A stretch of DNA of 64,000 bases from positions 1 through 64,000 of the forward strand of contig JAHBUL010000022.1 of the NCBI GenBank assembly GCA_019638085.1, read 5' to 3'. How positions within the stretch are numbered: position 1 is the stretch's first letter; the number at the start of each line of letters is the position of its first letter. The notes under the pieces were generated by a model. That model was not told where the DNA came from and ran no database searches. It saw only the letters and a list, made by a program, of their open reading frames with translations. The position numbers and the translations under genes were made by a program. Shown here piece after piece: positions 145-61,811 of this stretch. This stretch comes from Flavobacteriales bacterium. Lineage in GTDB: Bacteria > Bacteroidota > Bacteroidia > Flavobacteriales_F > PHOS-HE28.

Positions 145-152
145 TATCTTTG
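145..152 (+). promoter_or_regulatory. Bacteroidetes -7 promoter box (TATCTTTG)
   Basis: TATCTTTG matches the Bacteroidetes -7 consensus TAnnTTTG exactly and lies 19 bases before the ATG at 172. No clear -33 TTG is present at the usual spacing. The box supports a start at 172 rather than an upstream in-frame codon, because transcription would begin just after it. Confidence 0.5.
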
Positions 153-171
153 CCCCCTTACTTCACAACAT

Positions 172-1185
172 ATGTTCATCCGTACACTTCTCTTTGGCTT
201 CATTGCCGCAGCTGTATTGGCCTCGTGCAATACAGATCTCGATATCACGGCGCCGTACAAGGAGAACACCATCGTGTATGCCATGCTGGATAAGGACAGC
301 ACCACCCAATACGTGAAGATCAACAAGGCATTCCTTGGACCGGATAATGCTTTTGTTTACGCGCAGGTAGCCGACTCCAGCGAATACACGGATGCCCAGC
401 TTCAAGCTGTGGTCCAAGAAGTGAAGAACGGAAGCGTGGTGAACACCTATGCGCTCAGCGACACGATGCTTCCACATGACCCCGGGGTGTTCGCAGGTCC
501 TCTGCACAAGCTGTACTACTTCAATGCGGTATTGGATTCATCTGCAACCTACCGTGTGGAGGCCACCGCTAAAGGGAACCAAGTATCCGCCACAACCCCG
601 ATCGTATCCAAGATCACCCCCACGGGTGCCATCCTTAGCCAGCCCTTACGGTTGATGTCAGTGGGCGGAGGCTATGGTGCGCAGACCATCAAGTGGAACA
701 GTTCGGTGAATGGCAAGCGTTACGATGTATCCTATCGCTTCCGTTGGGACGATGTAGCGGGTACCGATACCACCCCTCGCAGCTTTACCCAAAGGATCTC
801 CACGGTGGTTTCCAACAGTACCGCAGGCGGTGAAAATATGGATGTGGTCCTTGACGGCGAATCGTTCTTTCAAACCGTAGGACTGCGTGCTGCAGGCGGG
901 CCCAATGTCAGCCGTCGCATTTATCGGGGCGTGGATATCCTCTGGGCTGTTGCCGGACCGGATCTCCACTTGTACTTGCAGCTGAACAGCCCCATCTCCG
1001 GCCTGGTTGAAGAACGGCCTTCCTACACCAACGTAAACAACGGCTACGGACTCTTCTCCACGCGCCGCTTTTTGGTATTGCCGGTCAATGGGCTGCACTC
1101 TTCCACCGCACCAGAACTGGTCCAGGGGCAGTATACAGCAGGTCTCAACTTCTGTATCCCCAATAGTGATTTCGATTGCAATTAG
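172..1185 (+). CDS. Putative outer-membrane lipoprotein, DUF4249-like
   Basis: A 337-residue protein with a lipoprotein signal peptide: MFIRTLLFGFIAAAVLASC gives a lipobox (LASC) with Cys at residue 19. The mature part opens with TDLDITAPYKENTIVYAML, resembling Bacteroidetes lipoproteins with an N-terminal Ig-like fold (DUF4249 and relatives), which often accompany surface nutrient-uptake systems. No SusC/SusD partner is visible, but the neighbour on the left is outside the window. The start at 172 is chosen because the signal peptide begins there and a -7 box lies at 145-152. Family assignment rests on pattern memory only; it could be an unnamed lipoprotein family. No catalytic motif is seen. 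Confidence 0.6.
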   Translation: MFIRTLLFGFIAAAVLASCNTDLDITAPYKENTIVYAMLDKDSTTQYVKINKAFLGPDNAFVYAQVADSSEYTDAQLQAVVQEVKNGSVVNTYALSDTMLPHDPGVFAGPLHKLYYFNAVLDSSATYRVEATAKGNQVSATTPIVSKITPTGAILSQPLRLMSVGGGYGAQTIKWNSSVNGKRYDVSYRFRWDDVAGTDTTPRSFTQRISTVVSNSTAGGENMDVVLDGESFFQTVGLRAAGGPNVSRRIYRGVDILWAVAGPDLHLYLQLNSPISGLVEERPSYTNVNNGYGLFSTRRFLVLPVNGLHSSTAPELVQGQYTAGLNFCIPNSDFDCN

Positions 1186-1348
1186 GACATTCTGTCCATT
1201 TGTCAGGGACGAATTCGCCACATTGGACGTGCCTCTGCCATTCCGCGCATAGCGGAATGCACTGGCATGATCGTTGGAGATGGCGCAATCGCCAACACGA
1301 GATCAAATACCAAAGGACCAGACCATATGGTCCGATAACAAAAGAACA

Positions 1349-3262
1349 ATGAGCAAGATCATAGGTATCGACCTAGGCACCACAAACAGTTGCGTAGCCG
1401 TGATGGAAGGCAACGAACCAGTGGTGATCAACAACAGTGAAGGGAAGCGCACCACTCCTAGCATCGTCGCATTCGTTGAGAATGGTGAACGCAAAGTGGG
1501 TGATCCCGCTAAGCGACAATCCATCACCAACCCCCACAATACGGTGTATTCCATCAAGCGATTCATGGGCAATACCTATGAAGAGGATGCCAAGGAGATC
1601 GAGCGCGTGCCATATGAGGTGGTCCGTGGTGATGGAGGAATGCCTCAAGTGAAAATCGGCGACCGCAAATACACCCCGCAGGAGATCAGTGCGATGATCC
1701 TGCAGAAGATGAAAAAGACGGCTGAGGATTACCTCGGCACCACGGTGAGCGAGGCGGTGATCACCGTGCCTGCATATTTCAACGATGCACAGCGCCAAGC
1801 CACCAAAGAGGCCGGCGAGATCGCGGGCTTGAAAGTACGCCGGATCATTAACGAACCCACCGCTGCAGCGTTGGCCTATGGCCTCGACAAAAAGCACAAG
1901 GACCAGAAGGTGGTTGTATTCGACTGCGGTGGAGGCACACATGACGTGAGCGTCCTCGAACTGGGCGACGGGGTCTTCGAAGTGAAGAGCACCGATGGCG
2001 ACACCCATTTGGGTGGCGACGACTTCGATCAGGTCCTGATCGATTGGTTGGCAGATGAGTTCAAAAGCGATGAGAACATCGACCTTCGTAAGGATCCCAT
2101 GGCCCTGCAGCGCCTGAAGGATGCCGCCGAGAAAGCCAAGATCGAACTTAGTAGTACTACCAGCACGGAGATCAACCTACCGTACATCATGCCGGTGGAT
2201 GGCATCCCGAAGCATTTGGTGCGCACCCTGAGCCGTGCCAAGTTCGAACAACTTGTGGACCCCTTGGTGAAGCGCACCATCGCCCCCTGCGAAAGCGCTT
2301 TGAAGAACGCCGGGTTGAAGCCAAGCGATATCGATGAGGTGATCCTCGTAGGAGGAAGCACACGCATGCCTGCCATACAGGAAGCCGTCAAGAAGTTCTT
2401 CGGCAAGGAGCCAAGCAAGGGTGTGAACCCGGACGAAGTGGTGGCCGTGGGTGCCGCCATCCAAGGAGGTGTCCTCACCGGTGAGGTGAAGGATGTGCTT
2501 CTCTTGGACGTTACTCCCTTGAGCCTCGGGATCGAGACCATGGGCGGGGTGATGACACGCCTGATCGAGGCCAACACCACCATTCCTACGAAAAAGAGCG
2601 AGACCTTCAGCACGGCCAGCGACAACCAACCCAGCGTGGAGATCCACGTGCTGCAAGGTGAGCGCCCCATCGCCTCCGGCAACCGCACCATCGGTCGCTT
2701 CCACTTGGACGGTATTCCGCCGGCCCGCCGAGGAACTCCGCAGATCGAGGTCACCTTCGACATTGATGCGAACGGTATTCTGCACGTAGGTGCCAAGGAC
2801 AAGGCCACGGGCAAGGAGCAGAGCATCCGGATCGAGGCCAGCAGTGGCTTGAGCAAGGAGGAGATCGAGAAGATGAAGAAAGAGGCCGAGGCCAACGCTG
2901 AAGTGGACAAGGCCGCTCGTGAAAAGGCCGATAAGCTCAATCAGGCTGACAGCCTGATCTTCCAGACCGAAAAGCAACTTGCGGAATTCGGGGATAAGCT
3001 GCCAGCTGATAAAAAGGCACCTATCGAGGAAGCTGTGGCCAAGCTGAAAAAGGCCCACGAAGCACAGGACCTGCCCGCTATCGACACGGCCATGAACGAA
3101 TTGAACACCATCTTCTCCAGTGCAAGTGAAGAGATGTACAAGGCCGCACAAGATGCCCAAGGCAATGGAGCTACGGCATCGGATGGAAGCAGCCAAGGTG
3201 CACCGGCCGATCAGGAAGTCACCGATGTCGACTTTGAAGAAGTGAAGGACGACAAGAACTAA
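1349..3262 (+). CDS. dnaK: Molecular chaperone DnaK (Hsp70)
   Basis: An ATP-dependent chaperone of 637 residues, the family's usual length. The N-terminal ATPase domain starts with [18 protein letters not shown]; the substrate-binding domain contains [14 protein letters not shown] and [19 protein letters not shown]; the lid ends in [12 protein letters not shown]. The start at 1349 puts the conserved [12 protein letters not shown] at the N-terminus; an in-frame ATG at 1274 would add 25 unrelated residues. The phosphate-2 loop reads [11 protein letters not shown] (residues 191-201) rather than the more common DLGGGTFD. The catalytic Thr197 is kept, and GGGTHDVS is probably a lineage variant. 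dnaJ and grpE are not adjacent and no CIRCE operator is seen. A 12-base palindrome GACCATATGGTC at 1321-1332 lies just upstream. A strong terminator follows. Confidence 0.97.
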
Positions 3263-3278
3263 AGCAAGCCCTCAACGC

Positions 3279-3316
3279 AAAAAGCCGCCCCCGGAGATCC
3301 GGTCGGGCGGCTTTTT
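3279..3316. terminator. Bidirectional rho-independent terminator after dnaK
   Basis: AAAAAGCCGCCC at 3279-3290 pairs perfectly with GGGCGGCTTTTT at 3305-3316 around a 14-base loop. It has an A run on the left and a T run on the right, so it can stop dnaK on the plus strand and any transcript coming from the convergent gene on the minus strand. Confidence 0.9.
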
Positions 3317-3757
3317 ACGTTCGGACTATTCGTTGTGGATTCTGAGTTCAGCACGACACATCCAGAGGAGAACCCTCAGCGTAGTATTGATAACCGGTGG
3401 ATTTCGCCCTCCAACGGCCGATCAACATCCCCTGATCTGCGCGCTAAGCTCGGTGCCTGAGGTTTTGGGCCATGAGAAACTCGAAGGTACTGTGTTAACA
3501 TCCAAAGATTTTCCGTGATCACGCGTACGAACGATGGCCCTTCAAGCCTACCCACCCATAAAAGATCCGTGCGGGAGATCTGTGGGGTTTAGACCAGTGA
3601 ACCCGGTCCCGAAGGTTCTCGAAGGGCCGAGTTCACAGCCAAAAAATGAACGTGCTGATCCATCGAAAGTAACCGGCCCTTCGAGGCCCACTGGGGCCGG
3701 TTTCCAGATCCTAGGCGATCAGTCTGGATGGTTGCCCAGCCTTCCGGGCCGACTCGA
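3317..3757. other. 440-base intergenic region between convergent genes; hairpins only
   Basis: No convincing gene is seen; the short open frames here lack start context and family resemblance. The right half holds inverted repeats. GTGAAC (3597-3602) pairs with GTTCAC (3631-3636) around a GAAGG/CCTTC-rich core. AACCGGCCC (3671-3679) pairs with GGGGCCGGTT (3693-3702). The second hairpin could terminate the minus-strand gene that ends at 3758. The GGCCCTTCGAGG core also occurs near base 8 of the window, suggesting a small dispersed repeat. Confidence 0.4.
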
Positions 3758-5101
3758 CTAATCATATAACTCCTTGAGGATCTGCCTGAGTTCTTGGGCA
3801 TCCGTGGGTTTGGCCACGATCTTCATGGCCCTATCGAGCAGGAACAGTGCCGGTGTGGCCTTGACTTGGAAAGCCTGGGCCGCTTTGGAGCCCCAGCCAT
3901 TGAATTCGCTGTAGCACCTCCAGGGTATCGCATTCTCCCGGATGCTGCGTAGGAAATCAGTGCTATCCACATCCAAGGCAATACCGATCACATCGAAACC
4001 TCTTTTTTGGTAGGTGCTGCGATCTGCCTTTAAGCCCGGCATCTGGGCATGGCAATGCTCACATGTACTCGAATAAAAGAATACCGCAGTATAGGTGTTC
4101 GCTTTCACCAACTGGGATAGCTGAAATTTCGTTCCATGATCATTCAGTTCCACGTCGGGGGCCGTACGGCCTACGGAAACATGGAGGAGGGCATCCACCT
4201 TTTGTCGCACGGTAGCTGATACGGCCGTGCTTCCACCATAGGGTGCTACATAGCGATCGATCATGTGCTGCAAGGCCGATTCGGGGCCGTAGGTGGCGAA
4301 CAGATCTATCAGATGCTCCAACATGTACGCCTTGCACGCAGTGTCCCCACTGGCCAGTTGCATCAGGGTATCAGCTGCATTGGCAAACTGGACCTCGCTT
4401 ACCGCATTGAGGTTCTGCATAAAGGCCATTACGGCCTTATCGTAAACCGTGGACCGCAAGAGTTCTGGATCACTGAAATCGCATGCTGCCGCCACCGCCA
4501 TCGGCCCCCCACCTCGCGCACCTTGCACGGCTTGATCCACACGAAGGGCTTTCGCAAAAAAACTGGTAGGTGCCTGCACAGCCAGTTCCTCCAAGTACTG
4601 CTCCTGGGTGTGGATGGCTCGTTGCTCCACCCTGTCCAAGGCATCCAGTTCGAGCGTATCGGTGGGGAGTAATCGGCTCTTCTGCTCGGCAACCGCAGCT
4701 TTCACTGCTTGGGTTTCCTTGGTGACGTACTGTAGTTCCCAAAGCCGCTTGTTCTCATCCGAGGCTTGCACACGGACATGATCGGCCAGTGGGCGTCCCA
4801 CGAATCGAAGGTCGACCAACGGTTCACGTGCATCCAGGATCAGGTTGACCTGATCGGTATCGCTAAGGGCAAGCTGATAGAAACCGGTGGCATTGAAGCG
4901 GTCGTGGAAGTTGAAATCCCCGGATGGTCCTATATGGGTTGAATCCACGAGCGTGAAGGATGCTCCTCTTGCTTGGTACAGCTTGAGCATTCCGCCTGTG
5001 CTGGCGGTATCATGAATATGGCCTTTCAGCTGTTGTGCATGCAACGCTGGCATGATCAGCCAGGCCATGGCGGCAATAAGAAAGCGGTGGACGTTCTTCA
5101 T
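3758..5101 (-). CDS. Secreted TlpA-like thioredoxin-fold protein
   Basis: A 447-residue protein with a signal peptide (MKNVHRFLIAAMAWLIMPALHA, then QQ). The N-terminal 120 residues are a beta-rich DUF4369-like region, followed by a helical middle. The C-terminal 130 residues are a thioredoxin fold with the redox motif CEHC (C347-C350) in FFYSSTCEHCHAQMPGL and the cis-Pro loop VKATPALFLLD. Proteins of this build are periplasmic or membrane-attached thiol:disulfide oxidoreductases of the TlpA/ResA group, common in many copies in Bacteroidetes; the substrate cannot be told. It is transcribed alone, converging on dnaK. A TTCCTTTG box (complement of 5111-5118) stands 9 bases before the ATG, suggesting a very short leader. 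Confidence 0.85.
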   Translation of the reverse strand: MKNVHRFLIAAMAWLIMPALHAQQLKGHIHDTASTGGMLKLYQARGASFTLVDSTHIGPSGDFNFHDRFNATGFYQLALSDTDQVNLILDAREPLVDLRFVGRPLADHVRVQASDENKRLWELQYVTKETQAVKAAVAEQKSRLLPTDTLELDALDRVEQRAIHTQEQYLEELAVQAPTSFFAKALRVDQAVQGARGGGPMAVAAACDFSDPELLRSTVYDKAVMAFMQNLNAVSEVQFANAADTLMQLASGDTACKAYMLEHLIDLFATYGPESALQHMIDRYVAPYGGSTAVSATVRQKVDALLHVSVGRTAPDVELNDHGTKFQLSQLVKANTYTAVFFYSSTCEHCHAQMPGLKADRSTYQKRGFDVIGIALDVDSTDFLRSIRENAIPWRCYSEFNGWGSKAAQAFQVKATPALFLLDRAMKIVAKPTDAQELRQILKELYD

Positions 5102-5147
5102 GTGCGATCACAAAGGAAACATCATGCCGGTCCTGTTGGGATAGGCA

Positions 5148-5185
5148 CAAAAAAAAGAACCCCGCCTTTTGAGGGGCGGGGTTCA
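5148..5185 (-). terminator. rRNA operon terminator
   Basis: On the minus strand GAACCCCGCCCCTC/TTTTGAGGG-type arms form a GC-rich hairpin followed by a run of eight T directly after the 5S gene. It lies between the 5S rRNA and the start of the TlpA-like gene. Confidence 0.85.
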
Positions 5186-5187
5186 GA

Positions 5188-5299
<112 letters not shown>

Positions 5300-5379
5300 A
5301 ATCGTAAACACGATCAAGTGAGATATTATTAGACTGAACCAAAACAGACGATCGTCGAATCCACCGTGAAGACCTTTGC

Positions 5380-8272
<2,893 letters not shown>

Positions 8273-8401
8273 GACCTCTTATGGTCTTACTCGGTGGACC
8301 GATCTCTCGGTCTGTCTTGGTCAGTCTAACAATACGTCAAAGAACAGTGCGCCCTTTCGGGCAATGTGTCCGCCGTCGCCTTCGCTGAAGCGGACATTTG
8401 G

Positions 8402-8475
8402 TGGAGAATATCGGAGTCGAACCGATGACCTCCTGCTTGCAAAGCAGGCGCTCTAGCCAGCTGAGCTAATCCCCC
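8402..8475 (-). tRNA. tRNA-Ala (anticodon TGC)
   Basis: The minus strand folds as a cloverleaf starting GGGGGATTAGCTCAG with anticodon loop TTTGCAA and T arm GGTTCGACTCC. The acceptor stem contains G-T pairs and the discriminator is A. CCA is not encoded (next bases are C-A-A-A). It sits in the 16S-23S spacer, the usual place for this tRNA. Confidence 0.95.
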
Positions 8476-8488
8476 GTTTCCTAATCCC

Positions 8489-8673: not shown

Positions 8674-10195
<1,522 letters not shown>

Positions 10196-10670: not shown

Positions 10671-10697
10671 GACATGGGAATAATTCAGCGGAGCGGT

Positions 10698-12284: not shown

Positions 12285-12318
12285 CGATGCACAAAGCAAG
12301 CACACGGCACGCAACCGA

Positions 12319-16177: not shown

Positions 16178-16289
16178 TGCGAGTGCAAAGAAACGGCTTA
16201 TACCCTGCATGGGGAACTTGGATGAGCGCAGAAATGGGTAGGTTCTGACACAAAGCCACAGATCCTAGCAGAAGAACGGTGGGCCTTAA

Positions 16290-18824: not shown

Positions 18825-20060
18825 TCAAGGCTCAGCGTACAACAGGTACGGCTTCCTCATCACCCTGAAAGCATCCAAGTCCTTCTGCCAACCGGCCCGG
18901 ATCACCTCTTCGGACTTACCGGCTTCCACGGCCTTTCGCAGGGTGGAGTTGCCAGCCAGCTTGTCGAAGAAGGAATTGAAGAACTTCTTCTTGTCCACGC
19001 TGTTCGTGTACATACCGATGAGCCATTCCAGGTTCAATCGGTGATCAAGCCTGCTGTAGATCTCTCCGTAGGAACTGAGGTCCAACCCCGTGCAGAGCTG
19101 ATCGCGATAGGGTGGATCCTTGGCCCCTGGAACCGAGCGCGGCGTGAAGGTGAACGCGCCCAAGGGGCAATCGGGATAGCCGATGCACTGAAAAGGCTGC
19201 GCCGTGCCGCGGCCTACGCTTACGATGGTGCCTTCGAAAAGGCCGAGCGCGGGATAGAGGTAAATGGCGGACATGTTCGGCAGGTTGGGCGATGGTTTTA
19301 TCGGTAGCTCGTAGTAGCTGCTGTGGTCGTAGCCGGTGCAGGCGATCACGCTAAGATCGCACTTCACGCCTCCTTTCAGCCATCCCTCGCCGTTGATCAT
19401 GCGCGCGTATTCGCCCATGGTCATGCCGTGTACCAGCGGCACGGGGTGCATGCCCACGAAGCTGCGGAAGGCGGTATCCAGCACCGGCCCGTCCACGAAG
19501 AAACCGTTTGGGTTGGGGCGGTCCAGCACGATCACGGCCTTGTGCTCCTCGGCTGCTGCCTCCATCACGTAGTGCAAGGTGCTGATGTAGGTGTAGAAGC
19601 GCACACCCACGTCCTGGATGTCGAATACCAGCACGTCCACATCCTTCAGCTGCTCGGCACTGGGCTTTTTGTTCTTTCCGTAGAGCGAGACCACTTGCAG
19701 CCTGGTCCGCTTGTCGCGTTCATTGGCCACCTGCTCGCCCGCATCGGCTTCTCCGCGGAAGCCATGTTCCGGCGCGAAGACCTTCACGACGTCCATGCCG
19801 ATGGAAAGCAGTGAATCCACCAGGTGGGTAGGACCGATCATGCCGGTCTGGTTCGTTACCACTGCGATGCGTTTTCCGCGCAGCAGCGGAATGTATTGGT
19901 CGGTGCGTTCGGCCCCCACCTGGATCGGTGCATTGGCGAAAGTGGGCACCTGCTCGGGCTGTGCCGCTTGTTCCTGCGCAGGTGCCGGAACCTGGCAGCT
20001 TACAAGCACGAGGAGTGCGGCTATCTTCGCCGCGAACCCCATGGGCTTCGCACATTTCAT
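18825..20060 (-). CDS. Exo-beta-N-acetylmuramidase NamZ-like lipoprotein (DUF1343)
   Basis: A 411-residue lipoprotein (signal peptide ending LLVLVSC, Cys at residue 22). The DUF1343 core is evident: GKRIAVVTNQTGMIGPTHLVD, FAPEHGFRG, VFDIQDVGVRFYTYISTL, VLDRPNPNGFFVDGPVLD, PSPNLPNMSAIYLYPALGLFEGT and SVGRGTAQPFQ. Characterised members (NamZ, GH171) remove N-acetylmuramic acid from the non-reducing end of peptidoglycan fragments, a wall-recycling step. The start at 20060 yields a normal lipoprotein signal; 20042 would also work. Both overlap the divergent permease gene starting at 20041. Confidence 0.88.
   Translation of the reverse strand: MKCAKPMGFAAKIAALLVLVSCQVPAPAQEQAAQPEQVPTFANAPIQVGAERTDQYIPLLRGKRIAVVTNQTGMIGPTHLVDSLLSIGMDVVKVFAPEHGFRGEADAGEQVANERDKRTRLQVVSLYGKNKKPSAEQLKDVDVLVFDIQDVGVRFYTYISTLHYVMEAAAEEHKAVIVLDRPNPNGFFVDGPVLDTAFRSFVGMHPVPLVHGMTMGEYARMINGEGWLKGGVKCDLSVIACTGYDHSSYYELPIKPSPNLPNMSAIYLYPALGLFEGTIVSVGRGTAQPFQCIGYPDCPLGAFTFTPRSVPGAKDPPYRDQLCTGLDLSSYGEIYSRLDHRLNLEWLIGMYTNSVDKKKFFNSFFDKLAGNSTLRKAVEAGKSEEVIRAGWQKDLDAFRVMRKPYLLYAEP
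20022..20029 (+). promoter_or_regulatory. Putative -7 box TATCTTCG for the permease gene
   Basis: TATCTTCG differs from TAnnTTTG at one base and lies 11 bases before the permease ATG at 20041, inside the coding sequence of the divergent NamZ-like gene. Transcription from it would give a leader of only a few bases. Confidence 0.4.
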
Positions 20061-21603: not shown

Positions 21604-21691
21604 ACCGCGAGGTAAGGTCGATGCGTGCAGCGAGGTAAGGGCGATGCATGCCGCGCAGTAAGTAAGGGCGATGCATGCATCGCCCTTACTT
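21604..21691. repeat. GTAAGGGCGATGCATGC repeats ending in a 32-base perfect palindrome
   Basis: Three iterations of GCGAGGTAAGG(G)TCGATGCNTGC-like sequence lead into a perfect palindrome at 21660-21691 with centre GATGCATGCATC. Related GCATGC-centred palindromes lie at 38041-38150. The last arm (CCCTTACTTTCG) also supplies the putative -7 box TACTTTCG (21687-21694) of the next gene. Confidence 0.8.
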
Positions 21692-21700
21692 TCGCGGCGC

Positions 21701-23904: not shown

Positions 23905-23958
23905 GCCCCTCCGTAGAGCCACACTACCTTAGCAGCCGCCGTGGAAACGGTGTTGCAT

Positions 23959-42346: not shown

Positions 42347-42538
42347 CTACTGTTCTCCTCCGTACTTCTCCTCCTTATAGGCGGCACGCAGGAGCTCCCT
42401 GCGGCGTTCCACGGAAGGCTTGGTGAAGGATTGACGCTTGCGCAACGCACGCATCGTCCCCGTGCGCTCAAACTTCTTCTTGAATTTCTTAAGCGCCTTG
42501 TCAATGGGTTCGCCTTCTTTCACCGGGATGATCAGCAT
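42347..42538 (-). CDS. rpsU: Ribosomal protein bS21
   Basis: A 63-residue S21 with the hallmark MLIIPVKEGEPIDKALKKFK, RTGTMRALRKRQSF and VERRRELLRAAYKEEK. In Bacteroidetes bS21 with bS18 and bS6 buries the 16S 3' tail and so blocks Shine-Dalgarno pairing (established in Flavobacterium johnsoniae). rpsU itself is often controlled by a strong Shine-Dalgarno. Here the leader just before ATG is TTGAGAAAAAGAAC, whose AAAAAG can pair with the 16S tail CUUUUU, but the complement of the variant tail (AAAAAGGAGATG) is only partly matched. The gene has its own promoter and terminator. Confidence 0.95.
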   Translation of the reverse strand: MLIIPVKEGEPIDKALKKFKKKFERTGTMRALRKRQSFTKPSVERRRELLRAAYKEEKYGGEQ

Positions 42539-42560
42539 GTTCTTTTTCTCAATGGGGGTG

Positions 42561-42590
42561 CAAATATAACTTTTTCCTGGATCCGTGCAA
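42561..42590 (-). promoter_or_regulatory. rpsU: Promoter of rpsU
   Basis: TTG (complement of 42588-42590), 19 bases, TATATTTG (complement of 42561-42568), then 22 bases to the ATG. The mRNA leader should be only about 15-20 bases. Confidence 0.88.
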
Positions 42591-44992: not shown

Positions 44993-45895
44993 TCAGGGTT
45001 CGAACTGGGCGCGCAGCACCGCCAGCCCGTCCTCAAAGCCGTGCGGTGCATAGCCCAGGTCCCGGCGGGCCTTATCCAAGATGAAACCAGTGACCGGTGG
45101 GCGCTTGGCAGGTTGCCCCAAGGTATCGCTCTTGATCGGTGTGACCCCATCGGCCCTTAGGCCGAAGAATGCACCGGTGCGCTGCACAAGTTCAAGGATG
45201 CTCATCCCATCGGGACCGCTGAGGTGATAGATCCCCGTTGCGCCCTTTTCAGCAATACGGATGCAACCATCAGCGAGATCCTCGGCCAATGTGGGCATGC
45301 GCCATTGGTCGTCCACAACGTTGATCGGGCTGCCCTTTTCCAAGGCTCCCTTGGCCCAGAGCACCACATTGCTGCGGCTCAAGCCCTCGGCGATCCCATA
45401 CACGATAATGGTGCGGACAATGGCCCATCGCTTCAAGCCCGCTTCCTGTACGATACGCTCCCCATCCAATTTGCTTTGGCCGTAGATGCTCAGCGGCGCC
45501 GGTGTATCCTCCTCGCGATACGGTCCTGCCGCGCCATCGAACACGAAATCCGTGCTGAGGAAGATGAAGTGGCTCTTCTGCCGTTTGGCCGCCTCCACCA
45601 AGTATTCCGTAGCGGTGACGTTCTGGAGCTTGCAAGCCTCCTGATCCAGCTCACAGCTGTCCACGTTGGTCATGGCAGCGGTGTGGATGATGACCTCCGG
45701 ACGGAACGCATCGATCACCGCGTCCACCTCTTCCTTCCGGGTGATGTCCATGGAACGGTACCGCGCGCCAAGTGGTACTGCAGTGCGATCCGCACCACGG
45801 GAAGTGGCCAACAGCTCCACCGCAGGGTCATTCCGCAGAGCGACGACCAGTTTTTGACCCAAGAGACCGTTGCTGCCGGTGATCAGTAATCTCAT
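44993..45895 (-). CDS. rfbD: dTDP-4-dehydrorhamnose reductase family protein (RmlD-like)
   Basis: A 300-residue extended SDR. The nucleotide-binding motif ITGSNGLLGQKL is at residues 5-16; AAMTNVDSCELD and the active-site pair Tyr-x-x-x-Lys in SIYGQSK match RmlD, the last step of dTDP-L-rhamnose synthesis. The other rml genes are absent nearby, so it may be a stand-alone RmlD-like sugar-nucleotide reductase. TAGATTCG (complement of 45901-45908) is 5 bases before the ATG. It ends 9 bases before the broken HhH gene, probably in one operon. Confidence 0.82.
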   Translation of the reverse strand: MRLLITGSNGLLGQKLVVALRNDPAVELLATSRGADRTAVPLGARYRSMDITRKEEVDAVIDAFRPEVIIHTAAMTNVDSCELDQEACKLQNVTATEYLVEAAKRQKSHFIFLSTDFVFDGAAGPYREEDTPAPLSIYGQSKLDGERIVQEAGLKRWAIVRTIIVYGIAEGLSRSNVVLWAKGALEKGSPINVVDDQWRMPTLAEDLADGCIRIAEKGATGIYHLSGPDGMSILELVQRTGAFFGLRADGVTPIKSDTLGQPAKRPPVTGFILDKARRDLGYAPHGFEDGLAVLRAQFEP

Positions 45896-45943
45896 GAAGG
45901 CGAATCTAATGGACCGGGTGGAATACGGGATGTCCTATGCTGA

Positions 45944-51092: not shown

Positions 51093-51100
51093 TACATTTG
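51093..51100 (+). promoter_or_regulatory. -7 box TACATTTG, 6 bases before the start codon
   Basis: An exact TAnnTTTG box ends 6 bases before the ATG at 51107. If transcription begins 4-7 bases after the box, the mRNA is leaderless. No TTG is at the -33 position. Confidence 0.5.
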
Positions 51101-51106: not shown

Positions 51107-52417
51107 ATGGCGGGCATCCTGCTCACATGCGGCTATGTCGCACTCTTCCTCTACCTGATCGCTCGATGGCGCTTCTTTGAAGTGCCCAGCCTCAGCAAAC
51201 GCTCCATAGGTGCCCTGTTCCTACTGAAGGTGGTAGCAGGTACGGTGCTCTGGGGGGTGTACACCTATTACTATACCGATCGCTCAACGGCGGACATCTT
51301 CAAGTTCTTCGATGACGGCAACGTGATGTTCAGCGCACTACCCGCGCATCCACTGGATTACCTGCAGATGCTCACGGGTATCGGTAATGATGGACCCCGG
51401 TTCGATGAGCGCTATTACACGGTGATGAACCATTGGTACCGTCAGTATGATACGGGCTATTACAACGATGCCCACACCATGATCCGATACAGCGCGCTGG
51501 TGCGGCTTTTCTCCTTTGGGGTATACCATGTGCATACGGTCTTCTCCGCGTTCCTTTCACTGATAGGGTTGGTGGCGTTGTACAAGATCTTCATCGGTTT
51601 CGTGCCGGGCCTGGGCCGCTTGCTGATGGCCGGCCTGTTCCTGTGGCCCAGCGTACTCTTCTGGGGAAGTGCACCGATCAAGGAAGCCCTGCTCTTTCTG
51701 GGGCTGGGCTTGTTCCTGCTCCAAGTCTTCCGATGGATGAAAGGACCCTTACCGTGGACCGGCTGGCTGCTGATGCTCCTCGGGCTGCTGATACAGCTGG
51801 GGCTGAAATCCTATGTGCTGGCGTGCATGGTACCCGGCCTGTTCGCGCTCATCTGGTGCCGCCGTACCGGCGATCGGCATGCGGTACTGAAGTTCGGGGT
51901 GGCACATGTGATCGCAGCATTGATCATTCTGGCTCTGCCCATGGTCGCTCCCAGCCTTGATATATTGGGGATCATCCAGCAGAAACAACGGGACATGCTC
52001 GGCTTGGTGGCCGCCATGGCCCCGGGTAGTTATATCCCTACCCCGCTGATGGAGCCGACACTCATCGGCATGATCAAGCAGGTGCCACACGCTCTTTTCC
52101 TCACTTTTCTCTCTCCGCTGGTCACGTGGGACAGCGGGGCAATGGGGCTTCTGGGTGCGTTGGAGAACGTATTGCTCCTGCTGTTGGTCCCCGCAGCGAT
52201 CTTCTTCGCCAAACCGTGGCCCCGGATCGACCTTCCAATGCTCCTCTATTCCGTGGCTTTCTGCCTGATCCTCGGTTTGCTGATCGGCTGGACCACACCG
52301 GTGGTGGGTGCCTTAATGCGGTACCGGGTGCCGATGCTCCCGTTCTACGCCATGGCGCTCCTGCTGATCGTGGACCCACACAAATTGGCTCGTTGGCCGC
52401 TATTCCGAACACCATGA
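51107..52417 (+). CDS. Polytopic membrane protein of unknown function
   Basis: A 436-residue protein with about ten hydrophobic segments. Signatures: VYTYYYTDRSTADIFKFFDDG in an outer loop; LFLWPSVLFWGSAPIKEALLFLGLGLFLL; and YRVPMLPFYAMALLLI at the end. The layout (aromatic periplasmic loops, basic cytosolic ends) is like that of O-antigen polymerase or GT-C glycosyltransferase families, but no motif proves this. The start at 51107 follows the TACATTTG box; the open frame upstream overlaps pyrF antisense and is rejected. The amidohydrolase gene overlaps its stop, so both are co-expressed. Confidence 0.7.
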   Translation: MAGILLTCGYVALFLYLIARWRFFEVPSLSKRSIGALFLLKVVAGTVLWGVYTYYYTDRSTADIFKFFDDGNVMFSALPAHPLDYLQMLTGIGNDGPRFDERYYTVMNHWYRQYDTGYYNDAHTMIRYSALVRLFSFGVYHVHTVFSAFLSLIGLVALYKIFIGFVPGLGRLLMAGLFLWPSVLFWGSAPIKEALLFLGLGLFLLQVFRWMKGPLPWTGWLLMLLGLLIQLGLKSYVLACMVPGLFALIWCRRTGDRHAVLKFGVAHVIAALIILALPMVAPSLDILGIIQQKQRDMLGLVAAMAPGSYIPTPLMEPTLIGMIKQVPHALFLTFLSPLVTWDSGAMGLLGALENVLLLLLVPAAIFFAKPWPRIDLPMLLYSVAFCLILGLLIGWTTPVVGALMRYRVPMLPFYAMALLLIVDPHKLARWPLFRTP

Positions 52418-54653: not shown

Positions 54654-54711
54654 GATGGTGCAAAGCAAGGCTGCATGCAGCAAAATTGCACTTGACCTAC
54701 ATCAAGAAGCT

Positions 54712-55275: not shown

Positions 55276-56016
55276 TCAACGCTTTTTGGCCATTAACTCG
55301 GCGGCCCACGCATAGCCGATCTGCTCAATATTTGACATTTTGCTCAGCTCGAACATGTTGAAGCGCGAGAGTTCCGGCGGTTCAACGAAGAGGTAGCAGC
55401 CCCGCGCCGAACGCATCACCATCTCCCGGAAATTCAAGTGCCAGATGCGATCCATGGTGCGCATCACGCCGCGTTTGCCCGGTACAAAAACCGGCAGCGG
55501 GTTCACATGTACTGCTATCACGCGGTCCTTTTCCTTCAGAAAGGGTTCAACGGGTAGGTTGTTGCTCATTCCTCCATCCACATGGAAGATTCCGTTCACC
55601 TTCACCGGTGGAAATACCAAGGGGATGGCACATGAAGCCATCAAGGCCGGCAACAATTCGCCGTGGCTGAAGATGCGCTGTCCGCCGTTCTCCAGATCGG
55701 TGGCGGAGACGTGCAAGGGGATCGGCAACTCCTCGAAATACCGATGCCGGAGCGTTCGGCGCAGGAAACTCGCGATGCGCCTCGATGCAAAGGAGGGCCT
55801 GCGGATAAGTCTGGAACGCTTCAGTTCCGCGCTTATCAGCGTACTCACCTCAACTGTGCTGTATCCATCCGCGATCAATGCCCCGACCAATGCACCTGCA
55901 CTTGTTCCGGAGATCGCTGCAGGAATGACGCCCGCCTCGTGGAATGCCCGGAGCACCCCGATGTGTGCAGCACCGCGTATGCCGCCACCCGAAAGCACGA
56001 AGGGTCGTTTTTCCAT
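55276..56016 (-). CDS. Patatin-like phospholipase, cytosolic
   Basis: A 246-residue patatin-domain protein. The oxyanion loop is GGGIRGAAHIG, the nucleophile elbow GTSAG and the catalytic Asp in DGGMSNN; all are intact. It has no signal peptide or barrel, unlike the protein at 23959. It is the first gene of a two-gene operon with the Crp/Fnr regulator. Confidence 0.9.
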   Translation of the reverse strand: MEKRPFVLSGGGIRGAAHIGVLRAFHEAGVIPAAISGTSAGALVGALIADGYSTVEVSTLISAELKRSRLIRRPSFASRRIASFLRRTLRHRYFEELPIPLHVSATDLENGGQRIFSHGELLPALMASCAIPLVFPPVKVNGIFHVDGGMSNNLPVEPFLKEKDRVIAVHVNPLPVFVPGKRGVMRTMDRIWHLNFREMVMRSARGCYLFVEPPELSRFNMFELSKMSNIEQIGYAWAAELMAKKR

Positions 56017-56054
56017 CCGATTCTCGTGAACGACCGGGATACAAGCCGGAATCG

Positions 56055-58631
56055 CTATTCCTTAATGAAGCGCAGACCGGTGCCTGAAGGCATGCCGCGC
56101 AGATTCAACAGATACATTCCCGAACTTAATCCCACCACGGAGATCACTGCCGGAGCGCTATGCACTATACCGTGTTGCACGCGACGTCCGCTCACATCCA
56201 TGATCTCATATGTCACTTCACGGGTGGCAGGATCCAACCCGCGCAGGTTCAACCGATCAACTACGGGTACCGGCCATAGCTGCAGGTGCGTGGGGAGTTG
56301 TTCTTCGATCCCGACGGAGAAGATGAAGATGGTATCCGAGTTCGCGGAACAACCCATGCTGTCCGTGATGTGGACGAAGTAGTGGCCATTCTCCTCGGCT
56401 TCGATTTGCTGTCCTTCCGCACCCGGTATGGGCAGCGAATCCAAATACCACTGGTAGGTTGCTGCCAACGTACTTTCCAAGGTCAGGCCATCCGCTGTGA
56501 TCGTCACTTCCGGAAGCGGATTCGGCACTGCGATCAGCGTATCACTGGTTCCCAGACAACCTTCCGTTGTTTCCACCATGAGTTGCAGGGTATCGCCGGT
56601 GGTCCAAATGTCGCGTTGCTGCACACCGGTGCTCCACCAATAGCGGTACATGAAGTCCGGACCCGAGACCATCGCGCTATCCCCTTCGCAAAATGGCTGC
56701 TGCAACGTGAGTGGTACGTTCACATTGGTGGCGACCAATGCCGCAAAGGCATTCACCTTGCCGTGCCCGAAGCTGAAATTGGGCAATGTGTCGGTATAAA
56801 TATCGGAGAATGCCGAACCGATGATCGCATCGCGAACCGTGGTGTTCGTGGCACGCGGACATTTTTCCAACAGCAAAGCGGCTGTTCCCGCCACCACCGG
56901 GGAGGCGATGGAGGTGCCCCCGTTCCGCATGTGCAGGCTGTCGATCAGCTTCGCGGGATCGTTGGTCAGGAAGATCGCGAGGATATCCAACGGGCCCGCG
57001 CCGAAGGTGACATCGCCCGGTGCAGCTACATCGGGCTTTACCAAGCCCGTTCGCGAAGGTCCGCGGCTGCTGTTCATACTGATGTTCCCGGAGATGAAGC
57101 CAAGGTCCCGTGCGACGCCGCTAACATCTACATACTGCTGCTGATTGTTGTAATTGGCCACCGTGATCACCTGCGGTGAACAAGCCCACGAGTCCACCAT
57201 GCTCTGCTCATTGTCCGGAAGCACATACCGGGCTATGTCAGGGAAATCCACGCTATCGGGAATGTCCGAAATGATCTTCGAAGTGCCGAAAATGTCCGTG
57301 CTCCACACATCGAACAGGCCTGCACCAGTGGTGATGAAGCGGTAGTAGAGTTGCGATGTGGAATCCGGCTGGGGAATATAGACCTCCATGTGATATTGGC
57401 CACCCCGCAACTGCGCCTGCGTAAAGACCCTGCCGAGCTTATTCCCGCTCAGGGACCACAACGTATCCACCACGATCTGGCCCAAGGTGCCTTGGATGTT
57501 CCGGAAAGGGATCTGCCCCCTGAAGGAATAGCCACCGATCCGCTTGTCGGCTCCGATGCTGTACTGCACCTGGCGGAAGTCAGCCGTGTCGGCCCAGAGG
57601 TCGAAGTACACGGCCCCCACGTTCATGATGCTGTTCGGCTTGTATGCGAACCATGTGAAATTGGTATCCGCAGTAACCGTTGTGCGCAAATGGTACGGTG
57701 GGAAATTGCCGCTGTTCCCTGCGGCACAGACCAGCACGCGACCTGGCTGGTCCGTGATCAGCTGATCGATCATCAGCGCTGCAGGATCCAGCCCATCATG
57801 ACTGCCGTAGTACCCCCCCAAGCTGAGGTTGATGGCTACCGGACGCTGGAGCATGGCGGCTTGCTCCACAATATATCGCACAGCATCCACCACGGAACTG
57901 TTCCAATTGCTATGTCCCAGATCATTCGCCACGATGATGAGGTCCGCTTTGGGAGCAACACCTTCGCAATGCCCATTGCCATTGTTGTTGGCGGCTGCGG
58001 TGGCAGCTACCGTGGTCCCGTGGCCATACTGGTTGAACGGATCAACTGCCGGACATTCGCCTGCATTGATCGCTGTGCTGTCCCAAGCCTGACCATAGGT
58101 AAAGCCCGATGGCGTGAGCCAAGGATCGAAGGGGAAGGTCTGGTCCCAGTAGCGTAGCACACGGGTCCGGCCCGAGCTGTCCTGGAAATCCGGGTGCTGC
58201 AGTTCCAGTCCGGTATCGATAATGCCCATCAAAACGCCTTCGCCTTGATACGCTGATGGTAAGGGGTACAGCCCCGCATGCGCTTCATTCACATGGGCCT
58301 TCACCCGCATGCTGTCATTCAGCGTGTGCCCCTTGGACAGATCGAAAACGATGCTCCGGATGGCCTGCTCGTGTTCCAATTCCTTCACCCGATCCGCCGG
58401 AAAAGTTGCCTGCACCCAACCAGTGATGGCCATTTTCACCGTTCCCCCATGGGCGAGCGTGGCGCGTGAAACATCCACCGCATCTCCGCCGAGGAACAGG
58501 TCCACTTGGGCCGTGGGTTCGGCTGCTTCCAGCCATGCCTGCAACTGGAATCCCAATTTGGAAGGTCCTTGCGAAAAGGCCATGGACCCGATCGCCAGCA
58601 GGAGAACGAGGATTGAAGAACGTGATCTCAT
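56055..58631 (-). CDS. Subtilisin-like serine protease with T9SS sorting domain
   Basis: An 858-residue S8 peptidase with signal peptide SILVLLLAIGSMAFS. The catalytic triad is Asp139 (IIDTGLELQHPDF), His204 (YGHGTTVAATAAA) and Ser574 (GGTSIASPVVAGTAAL). After the protease domain come an Ig-like module and a C-terminal T9SS type A domain (LWPVPVVDRLNLRG, YEIMDVSGRRVQ, MYLLNLRG). It is an exported surface or released protease. TAACTTTA (complement of 58638-58645), one base off the -7 consensus, is 6 bases before the ATG at 58631. Confidence 0.92.
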   Translation of the reverse strand: MRSRSSILVLLLAIGSMAFSQGPSKLGFQLQAWLEAAEPTAQVDLFLGGDAVDVSRATLAHGGTVKMAITGWVQATFPADRVKELEHEQAIRSIVFDLSKGHTLNDSMRVKAHVNEAHAGLYPLPSAYQGEGVLMGIIDTGLELQHPDFQDSSGRTRVLRYWDQTFPFDPWLTPSGFTYGQAWDSTAINAGECPAVDPFNQYGHGTTVAATAAANNNGNGHCEGVAPKADLIIVANDLGHSNWNSSVVDAVRYIVEQAAMLQRPVAINLSLGGYYGSHDGLDPAALMIDQLITDQPGRVLVCAAGNSGNFPPYHLRTTVTADTNFTWFAYKPNSIMNVGAVYFDLWADTADFRQVQYSIGADKRIGGYSFRGQIPFRNIQGTLGQIVVDTLWSLSGNKLGRVFTQAQLRGGQYHMEVYIPQPDSTSQLYYRFITTGAGLFDVWSTDIFGTSKIISDIPDSVDFPDIARYVLPDNEQSMVDSWACSPQVITVANYNNQQQYVDVSGVARDLGFISGNISMNSSRGPSRTGLVKPDVAAPGDVTFGAGPLDILAIFLTNDPAKLIDSLHMRNGGTSIASPVVAGTAALLLEKCPRATNTTVRDAIIGSAFSDIYTDTLPNFSFGHGKVNAFAALVATNVNVPLTLQQPFCEGDSAMVSGPDFMYRYWWSTGVQQRDIWTTGDTLQLMVETTEGCLGTSDTLIAVPNPLPEVTITADGLTLESTLAATYQWYLDSLPIPGAEGQQIEAEENGHYFVHITDSMGCSANSDTIFIFSVGIEEQLPTHLQLWPVPVVDRLNLRGLDPATREVTYEIMDVSGRRVQHGIVHSAPAVISVVGLSSGMYLLNLRGMPSGTGLRFIKE

Positions 58632-58642
58632 CGGGGATAAAG

Positions 58643-59110
58643 TTAGTCGGGGTTCGCCGCGCACAACCGCTCGTAGGAAGGCACCGTGGACAGGAACTCA
58701 ATGCGCCCGTCCGCATGATCGATCCGGCAACAGAAATGCACCAAGCCGTTGGTCACCAGCAGGAAAGGCACCTTGAACACGGTATTGTATCGGGCAGCCT
58801 GCTCGAACGTGCTCCGGTCCACCTTCACTGCGGGGGCCTTGCACTCCACCAACAATACGGGTTTCCCCTGCCGGTCATGTACCAAGAGGTCGGCACGCTT
58901 GGTAAGCTTGTTCACCAATAGCTTGCGCTCCACGGCAACCAACGACAAGGGGCAACCGACATCATGCACCAAGTAGTTCAGCACGTGCTGGCGCACCCAC
59001 TCTTCAGGGGTAAGGAACACCCAAACGCGGCGGGCGGGATCGAAAATGTGTGCCCCCTCCGGCGCATGTTTAGTTTTGACACCATGATCGGGCAGGTTCA
59101 AGGCTTGCAT
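58643..59110 (-). CDS. HsdR-N-like (restriction enzyme N-terminal domain) protein
   Basis: A 155-residue protein with the HSDR_N_2 pattern: WVRQHVLNYLVHDVGCPLSLVAVERKL, then the nuclease-like core ADLLVHDRQGKPVLLVECKAP with D-x(n)-E-x-K residues, and a Gln-rich FEQAARYN. Similar stand-alone genes sit beside holA in Bacteroidetes. No HsdM, HsdS or other restriction gene is near, so it is unlikely to be a full restriction system. The start at 59110 lies 23 bases from the divergent AMP nucleosidase-like gene. Confidence 0.8.
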   Translation of the reverse strand: MQALNLPDHGVKTKHAPEGAHIFDPARRVWVFLTPEEWVRQHVLNYLVHDVGCPLSLVAVERKLLVNKLTKRADLLVHDRQGKPVLLVECKAPAVKVDRSTFEQAARYNTVFKVPFLLVTNGLVHFCCRIDHADGRIEFLSTVPSYERLCAANPD

Positions 59111-59133
59111 ACATCCACTAAGAACGAACAAAA

Positions 59134-59907
59134 GTGCATACCAAAGAAGACATCGTGAAGAATTGGCTGCCCCGGTATACCGGCGTGGCCTTGGAAGATT
59201 TCAAGCCGTACGTACTGCTCACCAACTTCGACAACTACCTGGACATCTTCGCGGAGCAGACCGGCGCCACCCAACATGGGCAGGGCAAACCGATGCAGGT
59301 GGCCATCGCCGAGGACATGGTGATGATCAACTTCGGGATGGGCAGCCCCACTGCGGCCACCGTTATGGACCTGTTGAGCGCCATCGCCCCGAAGGCCGTG
59401 CTTTTCCTGGGAAAGTGCGGTGGCATCAAGAAGAAGAACGAACTCGGCGACCTGATCCTGCCCATCGCCGCCATTCGTGGGGAAGGAACCAGCAACGACT
59501 ACTTCGCACCGGAGGTGCCAGCACTGCCGAGCTTCATGATCCACCGCGCAGTGAGCGGCGTGATCCGCGACATGGAACTGGACTATTGGAGCGGCACGGT
59601 CTATACCACCAACCGTCGCGTGTGGGAGCACGATGAAGTCTTCAAGGAGCGCCTGCGTCGCGACCGCTGCATGGCCGTGGACATGGAAACGGCCACGATC
59701 TTCATCACCGGTTTCTACAACGAGATCTCCACGGGTGCCCTGCTGCTGGTGAGCGATCAGCCCATGGTACCTGAGGGCGTGAAGACCAGCGAGAGCGATA
59801 AGAAGGTCACCGGCAACTTCGCGGAGAACCATGTGAAGGTGGGCATCGCCTCCTTGCGTGACATCATCAACGAAGGCCGCTCAGTGAAGCATTTGCGGTT
59901 CGAGTGA
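59134..59907 (+). CDS. AMP nucleosidase-like nucleoside phosphorylase
   Basis: A 257-residue phosphorylase-superfamily enzyme. It has NFGMGSPTAATVMDLLSAI, VLFLGKCGGIKKKNELGDLILPIAAIRGEGTSNDYF and the nucleoside-binding MAVDMETATIF. This set is the pattern of AMP nucleosidase-type proteins in Bacteroidetes, which release adenine from AMP or handle related nucleosides. The start is a GTG at 59134, since no ATG precedes the conserved region. Confidence 0.85.
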   Translation: MHTKEDIVKNWLPRYTGVALEDFKPYVLLTNFDNYLDIFAEQTGATQHGQGKPMQVAIAEDMVMINFGMGSPTAATVMDLLSAIAPKAVLFLGKCGGIKKKNELGDLILPIAAIRGEGTSNDYFAPEVPALPSFMIHRAVSGVIRDMELDYWSGTVYTTNRRVWEHDEVFKERLRRDRCMAVDMETATIFITGFYNEISTGALLLVSDQPMVPEGVKTSESDKKVTGNFAENHVKVGIASLRDIINEGRSVKHLRFE

Positions 59908-60006
59908 GGCAAGTGGGCAGAATAGAACGCAGATGACGCGGAAAGAGCGGATCAACGCTGACCTGAATGAGCGCGAACGGCCGGGCGGAATGAATACCTT
60001 GGTACC

Positions 60007-61020
60007 ATGAGCACGGGAGACGATTTTCGGAAGATCAGAAAGGAGATCGCCGCTGGCAACTTCAAGCCCATCTATTTCCTGCACGGTGAAGAGCCATTCT
60101 TCATCGATCGTTTGGCGGCGGAGATCGAGCTCCATGCCTTGCAGGATCACGAAAAGGATTTCAACCTCACTATCCTCTACGGTCGTGATACCGACCCGGA
60201 TACCGTGAAGGACGCCTGCCTGCGCTATCCCATGATGGCGGAGCGACAGGTGGTGGTGCTCCGCGAGGCACAGACCTGGCGGGTCGACGCTTTCGAAAAG
60301 ATGGAGGCCTACTTCAAGAACCCCACGCCCACCACCGTGCTGGTGATCTGCTACAAGCACAAGAAAGCGGACGGCCGAAAGACGTGGCTGAAGGACCTCG
60401 GCAAGAAACAGGTGGTCTTCACCAGCGATAAGCTCAAAGAGGAGAAGCTGCCGGAATGGATCCAGAAGTACGTCACCTTCCACAAGCGCCGGATCGGGCC
60501 GGTGGAATCGAAACTGCTGGCGGACCACCTCGGTAGCGACCTGGGCAAGCTCACGAACGAAGTGGAAAAGCTCTGCATCGTGATCGAGGAGGGCGGCACC
60601 ATCACCGGCGAGCTGATCGAGCGCAACGTAGGCATCAGCAAGGACTACAACATCTTCGAGCTGCAGAAAGCCATCGGCATGCGCGACCATCCGCGGGCGC
60701 AGCGCATCGCGCAATTCCTGTCCACGGACAAGAGTTCACCACTGGTCCTTACCGTGGGCCTGCTCAGCTCATACTTCGGAAAACTCGGCATCGTGCATGC
60801 GAACCAAGGCAAGGCGCAGGGCGAATTAGCCGCAGCATTGAAGGTCCCGCCGTTCTTCGTGAAGGACTACGCCAACGCCGCACGCTTCTATCCGCCTGAA
60901 AAATTGCGTGAGGTGCAACACCTGCTCCGCGAAACCGATCTGCGCAGCAAAGGCGTGGGCAACACGAGCGCGGACGGCGGAGAGCTTTTGCGGGAGCTTT
61001 TGGTCAGAGTGATGGTTTGA
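60007..61020 (+). CDS. holA: DNA polymerase III subunit delta
   Basis: A 337-residue clamp-loader subunit. It begins IRKEIAAGNFKPIYFLHGEE and has an AAA-like domain followed by helical domains (AIGMRDHPRAQRIAQFLSTD, LLSSYFGKLGIVH). A TACCTTGG box (59995-60002) is 4 bases before the ATG. The order HsdR-N, AMP nucleosidase-like, holA resembles the neighbourhood seen in other Bacteroidetes. Confidence 0.92.
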   Translation: MSTGDDFRKIRKEIAAGNFKPIYFLHGEEPFFIDRLAAEIELHALQDHEKDFNLTILYGRDTDPDTVKDACLRYPMMAERQVVVLREAQTWRVDAFEKMEAYFKNPTPTTVLVICYKHKKADGRKTWLKDLGKKQVVFTSDKLKEEKLPEWIQKYVTFHKRRIGPVESKLLADHLGSDLGKLTNEVEKLCIVIEEGGTITGELIERNVGISKDYNIFELQKAIGMRDHPRAQRIAQFLSTDKSSPLVLTVGLLSSYFGKLGIVHANQGKAQGELAAALKVPPFFVKDYANAARFYPPEKLREVQHLLRETDLRSKGVGNTSADGGELLRELLVRVMV

Positions 61021-61054
61021 GTCAGTTGTCCGTTGTTCGTTGTCAGGCGTTCAC

Positions 61055-61678
61055 ATGCGAAAGAAGCTACTTGTCATCGGTGTTGTTTTGCTGACTATTG
61101 GTGGCGGCTTTTACCTGTGGTATACATGTGGAATTCTCGAGCCGTTCAACCGTTGGACAGCCGTGCGCGATATGAATCAGGGACGAATTCAGCTTGTTCA
61201 AGTTGGATATCCGGGACCCGACTATCCTCAAGTTGAGCATCGCGCAAGATTATTCGGCTATGAGATTTATCCATATGGATGCAATGTCTCTGCAAGGGCT
61301 TTAAATGGGATCCAACAGTACAATGAGGTTATGTCGAACTATCTGGTGAAGCGCAATGGGAAGGACTTTTGGACCAAGGTCGAAAACACGGAACTCCCTA
61401 CTGCCAGAACTTCCGACCACGACGATCAGCTGAAGCAGGTGATCGACCTCGTCCAGTCGCAACGAAGAGTTATTGCGCGCGCCGGATACGTCGACAGTGC
61501 CTCCGGCGGAAAGCGGCATCTAGCATTGATGACCGAAATTATGGACAGCCTGAGGAATATCCATCGCGTGAAGGTCGTGGAGTACAATGGCGTGAACTAC
61601 GCTGTGCATTTCACCTATACGATCGATGCAACAGCGATGAAGGTCCTTTCCGATCAAACGGAAGATCCGACCCCATAG
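61055..61678 (+). CDS. Hypothetical membrane-anchored protein, AT-richer than its neighbours
   Basis: A 207-residue protein with one N-terminal membrane segment ([21 protein letters not shown]) and a soluble domain with [38 protein letters not shown] and [20 protein letters not shown] do not recognise the family. Base composition and codon use are visibly more AT-rich than holA and valS on either side. The ATG at 61055 is preferred to an upstream TTG at 61040. Confidence 0.6.
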
Positions 61679-61811
61679 CACCTTACCCCTTTCCTCCCTT
61701 TGTGTCCTTAGTGCCCTTTGTGGTATTGATCTCGTTGCGTTCGTTGCGAACGTTGTGGTTAAAAAGCCAACGACACCTGCGGCCACGCTCCGGATTACCT
61801 TCGCGGCCCTG

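Follow-up and report, generated by a model that had tools for sequence, protein, structure and literature searches.

Boxes of the form TANNTTYG stood directly before the start codons of a minority of genes in this Flavobacteriales bacterium and in its genus, and they are very probably -7 elements of the Bacteroidota type located immediately upstream of the start codon, with predicted leaders of about 0 to 4 bases. In the mechanism that we propose from motif and position, TANNTTYG, with about six C-rich bases behind it, would be the -7 element of the main (housekeeping) Bacteroidota sigma factor, and its placement would put the A of the ATG at the normal transcript start or a few bases downstream of it. 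Genes with such a near box would be transcribed with leaders of that length, and translation of their mRNAs would begin at an AUG at or near the 5' end. Near-box promoters would be the smaller class, with about a quarter of the detectable boxes. The boxes of leadered promoters would be spread roughly 9 to 68 bases upstream and be densest at 15 to 20, and the balance in the lineage would be shifted toward leaderless genes relative to the rest of the class.

Boxes at start codons in the window and the genome

The window, i.e., the whole stretch of 64,000 nucleotides that was analyzed, carries the 12 boxes listed in Table 1, six on each strand. Coordinates and box-to-start distances agreed with the preliminary description in 12/12 cases each; five boxes were strict TANNTTYG, and seven had one mismatch. 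The description had also noted that most boxes lack a -33 TTG, and indeed 11/12 had no TTG at a spacer of 17 to 20, the box at 58638 (spacer 18) being the only one that did. Its further proposal, a transcript start at or just before the start codon, was partly supported. The enrichment of the box speaks for it and, with a start 4 to 5 bases after the box as in Flavobacterium johnsoniae, gaps of 4 to 8 bases between box and start codon would give leaders of about 0 to 4 bases. Gaps of 9 to 11 would give about 4 to 7 bases, which is not strictly leaderless, and for the FtsX-type permease gene a leader of about 6 to 7 bases is expected.

Table 1. Boxes and 16S rRNA gene of the window
Feature	Coordinates	Strand	Location and gene
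Box TTCCTTTG, 1 mismatch	5111..5118	-	9 bases 5' of ATG 5101, AhpC/TSA-redoxin protein gene (Pfam)
Box TTGCTTTG, 1 mismatch	12292..12299	-	7 bases 5' of ATG 12284, transglycosylase gene (Pfam)
Box TTTCTTTG, 1 mismatch	16186..16193	-	8 bases 5' of ATG 16177, purL-like gene
Box TATCTTCG, strict	20022..20029	+	11 bases 5' of ATG 20041, FtsX-type permease gene (Pfam)
Box TACTTTCG, strict	21687..21694	+	6 bases 5' of ATG 21701, PALP-CBS enzyme gene (Pfam)
Box TACCTTAG, 1 mismatch	23925..23932	+	8 bases 5' of GTG 23941, 26 of ATG 23959, patatin gene
Box TAGATTCG, strict	45901..45908	-	5 bases 5' of ATG 45895, RmlD-type gene (Pfam)
Box TACATTTG, strict	51093..51100	+	6 bases 5' of ATG 51107, 436-aa protein gene
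Box TTGCTTTG, 1 mismatch	54661..54668	-	7 bases 5' of ATG 54653, DinB-superfamily gene (Pfam)
Box TAACTTTA, 1 mismatch (weakly enriched form)	58638..58645	-	6 bases 5' of ATG 58631, subtilase gene
Box TACCTTGG, 1 mismatch	59995..60002	+	4 bases 5' of ATG 60007, holA (DNA polymerase III delta)
Box TACCTTCG, strict	61796..61803	+	8 bases 5' of ATG 61812, class I tRNA synthetase gene
Box TATATTTG, leadered contrast	42561..42568	-	22 bases 5' of rpsU (bS21, 42347-42538)
16S rRNA	8675..10195	-	Tail AACATCTCCTTTTT instead of AACACCTCCTTTCT

One start codon probably needs revision. The GTG given earlier as the start of the patatin gene is probably not the start, because the in-frame ATG downstream of it opens a signal-peptide-like sequence; that ATG is likelier, and the gene is then probably leadered. 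The purL-like gene encodes AIRS domains and an FGAR-AT linker (Pfam), and the 436-aa protein matched nothing in Pfam at 1e-5; the patatin, subtilase, DNA polymerase III delta, and class I tRNA synthetase assignments are likewise Pfam matches. The last of these genes, which we take to be valS-like, is cut by the window end, and a 1,284-aa protein of the window is presumably RpoB.

Starts were called with a codon-based gene caller that is blind to the upstream sequence and to the box. It is a rough tool that overlooks some of the true starts (for some listed genes it picked a different one, e.g., 45751 rather than 45895), an error that would weaken, not create, a sharp box peak. In the window, boxes of the type listed in the preliminary description occurred at gap 4 to 11 before 6 of the 34 scorable called starts, compared with 0.3 on average in intervals of the same width at gaps 60 to 139 and 0 to 2 from gap 28 on. 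A genome sample of 1.264 Mb (58% GC) yielded 716 usable starts from 854 called genes, and 0.4 Mb of the congener G010 yielded 283 from 307. Genes with a short upstream region (fewer than 150 bases) or a poor coding score (138/854 and 24/307, respectively) were left out before counting, as were two short contigs, L242 and L250, of the class genome G044.

TANNTTYG was found 29 times at gap 3 to 8 before the 716 starts, where 2.0 or 3.4 were expected depending on the choice of far control, and 28 times at gap 15 to 20. The 9-to-14 interval still held 16 boxes, which counts against our reading. The corresponding numbers in G010 were 12 (gap 3 to 8), 1 (9 to 14), and 8 (15 to 20), and the 999 called starts of both genomes together had 41 boxes at gap 3 to 8 (the near boxes), 17 at 9 to 14, and 57 at 15 to 26. 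Only 2 boxes at gap 3 to 8 preceded 2,827 internal in-frame ATGs, taken as decoys at up to three per gene. When the letters of the box were reordered in 3,360 ways, TANYTTNG, a pattern that overlaps with the box, was the only order to tie with it in the genome sample (29 and 29) and to lead in G010 (13 versus 12). Some one-mismatch forms were also enriched at gap 3 to 8 in the two genomes: TTNNTTYG (15 versus 2.2 expected), TANNTTYA (4 versus 1.5), TANNTTGG (5 versus 0.8), and TANNTTAG (2 versus 0.2); TGNNTTYG was not enriched there (1 versus 2.6). Thus, positional enrichment of the box relative to start codons, the check that the preliminary description had proposed against shuffled controls, was confirmed in the genome sample and in the genus by permutations, decoy ATGs, and gap controls.

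These three controls ruled out chance or local base composition as the cause of the placement. That the boxes are 12 loose matches picked from many starts would fit the mismatch needed in 7 of the 12 and the considerable one-mismatch background (26.5 expected of the 97 seen in the genome sample), but given the controls and the 6 of 34 called genes in the window we consider it extremely improbable. Chance is refuted for the set of 12 as a whole; individual one-mismatch sites, above all those at 58638 and 23925, may be chance matches. It is also highly improbable that the start codons were miscalled and that the genes, starting elsewhere, are leadered. In-frame ATGs do occur a few codons downstream of 54653 and 61812 and upstream of 21701 (30 bases) and 16177 (33 bases), and the reading frame of the gene at 51107 is open upstream of its ATG. 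The PALP-CBS query aligned from residue 1 to 3 in 36/39 genomes, a query that itself began there, so that an upstream start is possible. However, miscalling would blur, not make, a peak at 4 to 7 bases; the frames of the ATGs at 45895, 60007, and 5101 contain no start codon farther upstream, and the RmlD profile aligned with residue 1 at profile position 1.

Promoter or translation signal

We take the near box to be a promoter element, not a translation signal, on the strength of the features that it shares with more distant boxes and of the genes that it precedes. The -7 element TANNTTTG, of which TANNTTYG is the form with C also allowed at position 7, was enriched upstream of starts under the permutation control. 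That the near box is instead a Kozak-like or S1-binding U-rich element is quite improbable, even though its position is where such elements would act and A/T-rich signals before starts have been described for Bacteroidetes. Against that alternative, boxes 14 to 60 bases away consist of the identical 8-mer and are likewise followed by C-rich sequence from +1 to +6. Near boxes also favored divergent genes and were rare in tight same-strand runs, as a promoter should: 24 of the 41 near-box genes were divergent from their upstream neighbor, compared with 31% of genes without a box, and of the genes that follow a same-strand gene at a distance of less than 20 bases, 1/121 (genome sample) and 1/66 (G010), together 2/187, had a near box.

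A promoter should show a common -33 spacing, and none was clear, a point in favor of the translation signal. TTG stood at spacer 19 in 5/29 near boxes of the genome sample (other spacers averaged about 0.35) and in 0/12 of G010, while 93 leadered boxes had 13 TTGs at spacers 22 to 24 (4.4 expected) and 7 at 18 to 20; thus, the -33 test gave no single common spacing. Start codon usage was tried as a mark of leaderless genes and rejected, since ATG was the start in 40/41 near-box genes and in 89/93 leadered-box genes. Among all 66 reciprocal orthologue pairs of the two genomes, a strict near box was present in at least one genome in 6 pairs and in both in 1. In the 39 pairs with at least 50% identity, a count that drops the more distant pairs (below 45 to 60% identity), 4/4 directed cases (3 genes) kept the near box (up to one mismatch allowed, and the distance changed by no more than one base), against a base rate of 0.057.

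Share of near boxes and their distribution in the class

In the genome sample and G010 together, the strict near-box excess corresponded to 3.8% of genes (confidence interval [CI], 2.7 to 5.0) and 26% (19 to 33) of the box excess at gaps 3 to 60. Five class controls (G038, G042, G044, G047, and G054; 537 starts) gave 2.2% of genes (0.9 to 3.8) and 16% (7 to 29) of the box excess. With one mismatch allowed, the values were 9.3% of genes and 37% (29 to 46) of the excess versus 5.7% and 21% (11 to 32) in the controls. Gaps 3 to 14 held about 31% of the box excess, compared with 17% in the controls; both figures come from box positions, not from mapped starts. The latter value is close to the proportion of F. 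johnsoniae leaders no longer than 10 bases (13%), which supports the method. G038 and G042 alone had strict shares of 0.22 and 0.26, on few boxes. The strict shares of genus and class overlap, and the gene-call comparison alone does not separate them; the whole-genome counts do.

For these counts, which need no gene calls, TANNTTYG-N(gap)-ATG was scored at gaps 6, 12, and 18, all of which share one reading frame, with gap 12 as background although some real promoters fall there. All 45 genomes sampled from the order belonged to one genus. Its 35 counted members, including the genome studied here, had 1,418 matches at gap 6, 624 at gap 12, and 1,137 at gap 18. Gap 6 exceeded gap 12 in 34/35 genomes and gap 18 in 27/35. 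Two observations count against our reading: G011 had no gap-6 excess (61 versus 69 at gap 12), and gap 18 exceeded gap 6 in 8/35 genomes. In 23 class genomes the counts were 2,427, 2,294, and 2,768, with gap 6 above gap 18 in 4 and the reverse in 18. A wider draw of 149 genomes, which included most of these 23, comprised 143 genomes outside the genus from 62 families; these had 16,552, 15,736, and 18,077 matches, and gap 6 was above gap 18 in 43 and below it in 95. G098, with counts as low as those of the genus, showed no shift (39, 38, and 37). The genus is therefore shifted toward the leaderless box distance relative to the rest of the class, and leaderless placement is a large minority there and not absent elsewhere in the class.

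The shift was larger still in family f42, where 4/4 drawn genomes were shifted and the counts, at the three gaps only, were 311, 153, and 151; f59 and f63 each had one genome leaning the same way. It is a tentative suggestion, to which we give somewhat less than an even chance, that this order (one genus drawn) and f42 independently moved many promoters onto the start codon and that leaderless initiation is major, in f42 dominant, for the first genes of transcripts.

The 16S tail, related systems, and significance

The preliminary description had suggested initiation without leader pairing as a main mode and had tied it to the variant anti-Shine-Dalgarno (SD) sequence. Neither part is borne out. 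Near boxes make up about a quarter of the strict excess and 4 to 9% of genes, 28 of the 34 called window genes had no box with up to one mismatch at gap 3 to 11, and a strict box lay 20 to 42 bases 5' of rpsU in 24/24 genus loci fetched. The 16S tail of this genome reads AACATCTCC, and the TCTCC core was present in 12/12 genus tails read, of which one has AATATCTCC. Tails of class genomes were AACACCTCC in G036 and G038 and AACATCTCATTTT in G054. Tail and shift were uncoupled in three genomes, a very small number: G054 combines a variant tail with no shift (138, 159, and 201 at gaps 6, 12, and 18), while strings resembling canonical tails occurred in G121, one of the four shifted f42 genomes, and in G179, the leaning genome of f63. 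The variant as the cause of the shift was thus not supported.

That leaderless initiation is nevertheless the main mode of the lineage, favored by loss of the canonical anti-SD, is unlikely in our view. The uniform TCTCC core speaks for it, as do the genus excess at gap 6, which is larger than that at gap 18, and the share reached with one mismatch allowed. In addition, SD-like words at -20 to -4 preceded 32/397 starts, compared with 51 and 63 in two upstream control windows (all starts together), and words matching the variant tail were found 2 times versus 8 and 9. However, leadered boxes are still more numerous than near boxes, and the uncoupled genomes count against the link. Protein bS21 was found in 34/35 genus genomes (the remaining one is 83% complete), so that no loss of it was seen, and in Flavobacterium bS21, together with bS18 and bS6, already keeps the canonical tail hidden. 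A loss of the rpsU SD in the genus was also considered and dropped, since an SD-like AAAGGA-type word precedes rpsU in 10/24 genus leaders; it is not in the window's own leader, and where it occurs it could still pair with the tail.

Box-marked leaderless genes are known elsewhere. Zheng et al. (2011; PMC3160421) describe leaderless genes of Actinobacteria and Deinococcus-Thermus with a TANNNT box some 12 bases 5' of the start codon; in that survey, leaderless genes were called in 1/37 Bacteroidetes/Chlorobi genomes (2.4%), and only Pribnow-like boxes were sought. The arrangement found here shares with those genes a -10-type box fused to the start codon and found by its position relative to starts, whereas the box itself is the Bacteroidota TANNTTYG. 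Passages on F. johnsoniae (PMC6847099) give a predicted start 4 to 5 bases after the -7 element, a spacing that defined probable promoters in the RNA-seq data, as well as a weak -33 element and leaders longer than 10 bases in 87% of cases. The corresponding parts of the reports on F. psychrophilum (PMC9723704) and Bacteroides thetaiotaomicron (PMC7366714) give 5.5% leaderless genes and 3.7% of leaders shorter than 10 bases, respectively. As far as those accounts go, the -7 element is the same as ours, but C is common at the seventh box position here, and mapped leaders in the three species are mostly longer, in contrast to the share of the box excess that falls, by box position, at gaps 3 to 14 here. 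Anti-SD variants occur in Chryseobacterium, Riemerella, and other Bacteroidota (PMC6107228 and PMC10783764). An altered 16S tail core and SD-poor genes are common to them and to this lineage, in which the core is UCUCC in the 12 genus tails read. Searches of the open-access literature on leaderless genes in Bacteroidota brought up no report on this lineage.

The arrangement bears on how start codons are chosen without SD pairing in Bacteroidota, whose members mapped so far, which are cultured, have mostly leadered mRNAs that lack an SD, and a hidden anti-SD. In the uncultured lineage described here, the minority of genes with a probable promoter box at the start codon is unusually large; their messages would begin at or a few bases before the start codon, which is not common among relatives with measured starts. 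For annotation, the box would mark the true start codon of a sizeable gene set. With one lineage having both an altered tail and many near-start promoters and others having one of the two, these factors are separable and would offer a natural test.

Box placement in the genus and class

Whole-genome counts of the TANNTTYG box at fixed distances (gaps) from an ATG showed that leaderless-type placement in family f42, a family of the class outside the window's genus, exceeds that of the genus itself. In the four f42 genomes (G085, G121, G150, and G178; 1.9 to 2.3 Mb), gap 6 was counted 71 to 92 times per genome versus 30 to 47 for each of gaps 12 and 18, and one of the four carries a canonical-looking 16S tail string. 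Within the genus, G011 was the sole genome without a gap-6 excess (61 versus 69), and its gap-12 count was about fourfold that of the other genus genomes. G054, from another family of the class (locus L034), has a distinct 16S tail variant, AACATCTCATTTT; the promoter shift was absent from its whole-genome gap counts.

TTG spacing and a divergent gene pair

Upstream of leadered boxes, TTG was overrepresented at 22 to 24 bases (13 versus 4.4 expected; samples of the window's own genome and G010), unlike near boxes in the own sample, where TTG peaked at 19. At one divergent gene pair whose called start codons overlap, one start may be wrong, or the forward gene's box may lie inside the reverse-strand gene.

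Features located in the window
Feature	Position	Compared with
rpsU with upstream box	42347-42568	rpsU loci L203-L232
Overlapping start codons, divergent pair	20040-20043 (calls at 20041, +, and 20042, -)	

The rpsU locus

A strict leadered box preceded rpsU at all 24 genus loci. SD-like AAAGGA words varied, occurring at 10 of the 24 and being absent from the window's own rpsU; because of this variability, the known autoregulatory SD of bS21 may be decaying alongside the altered 16S tail.
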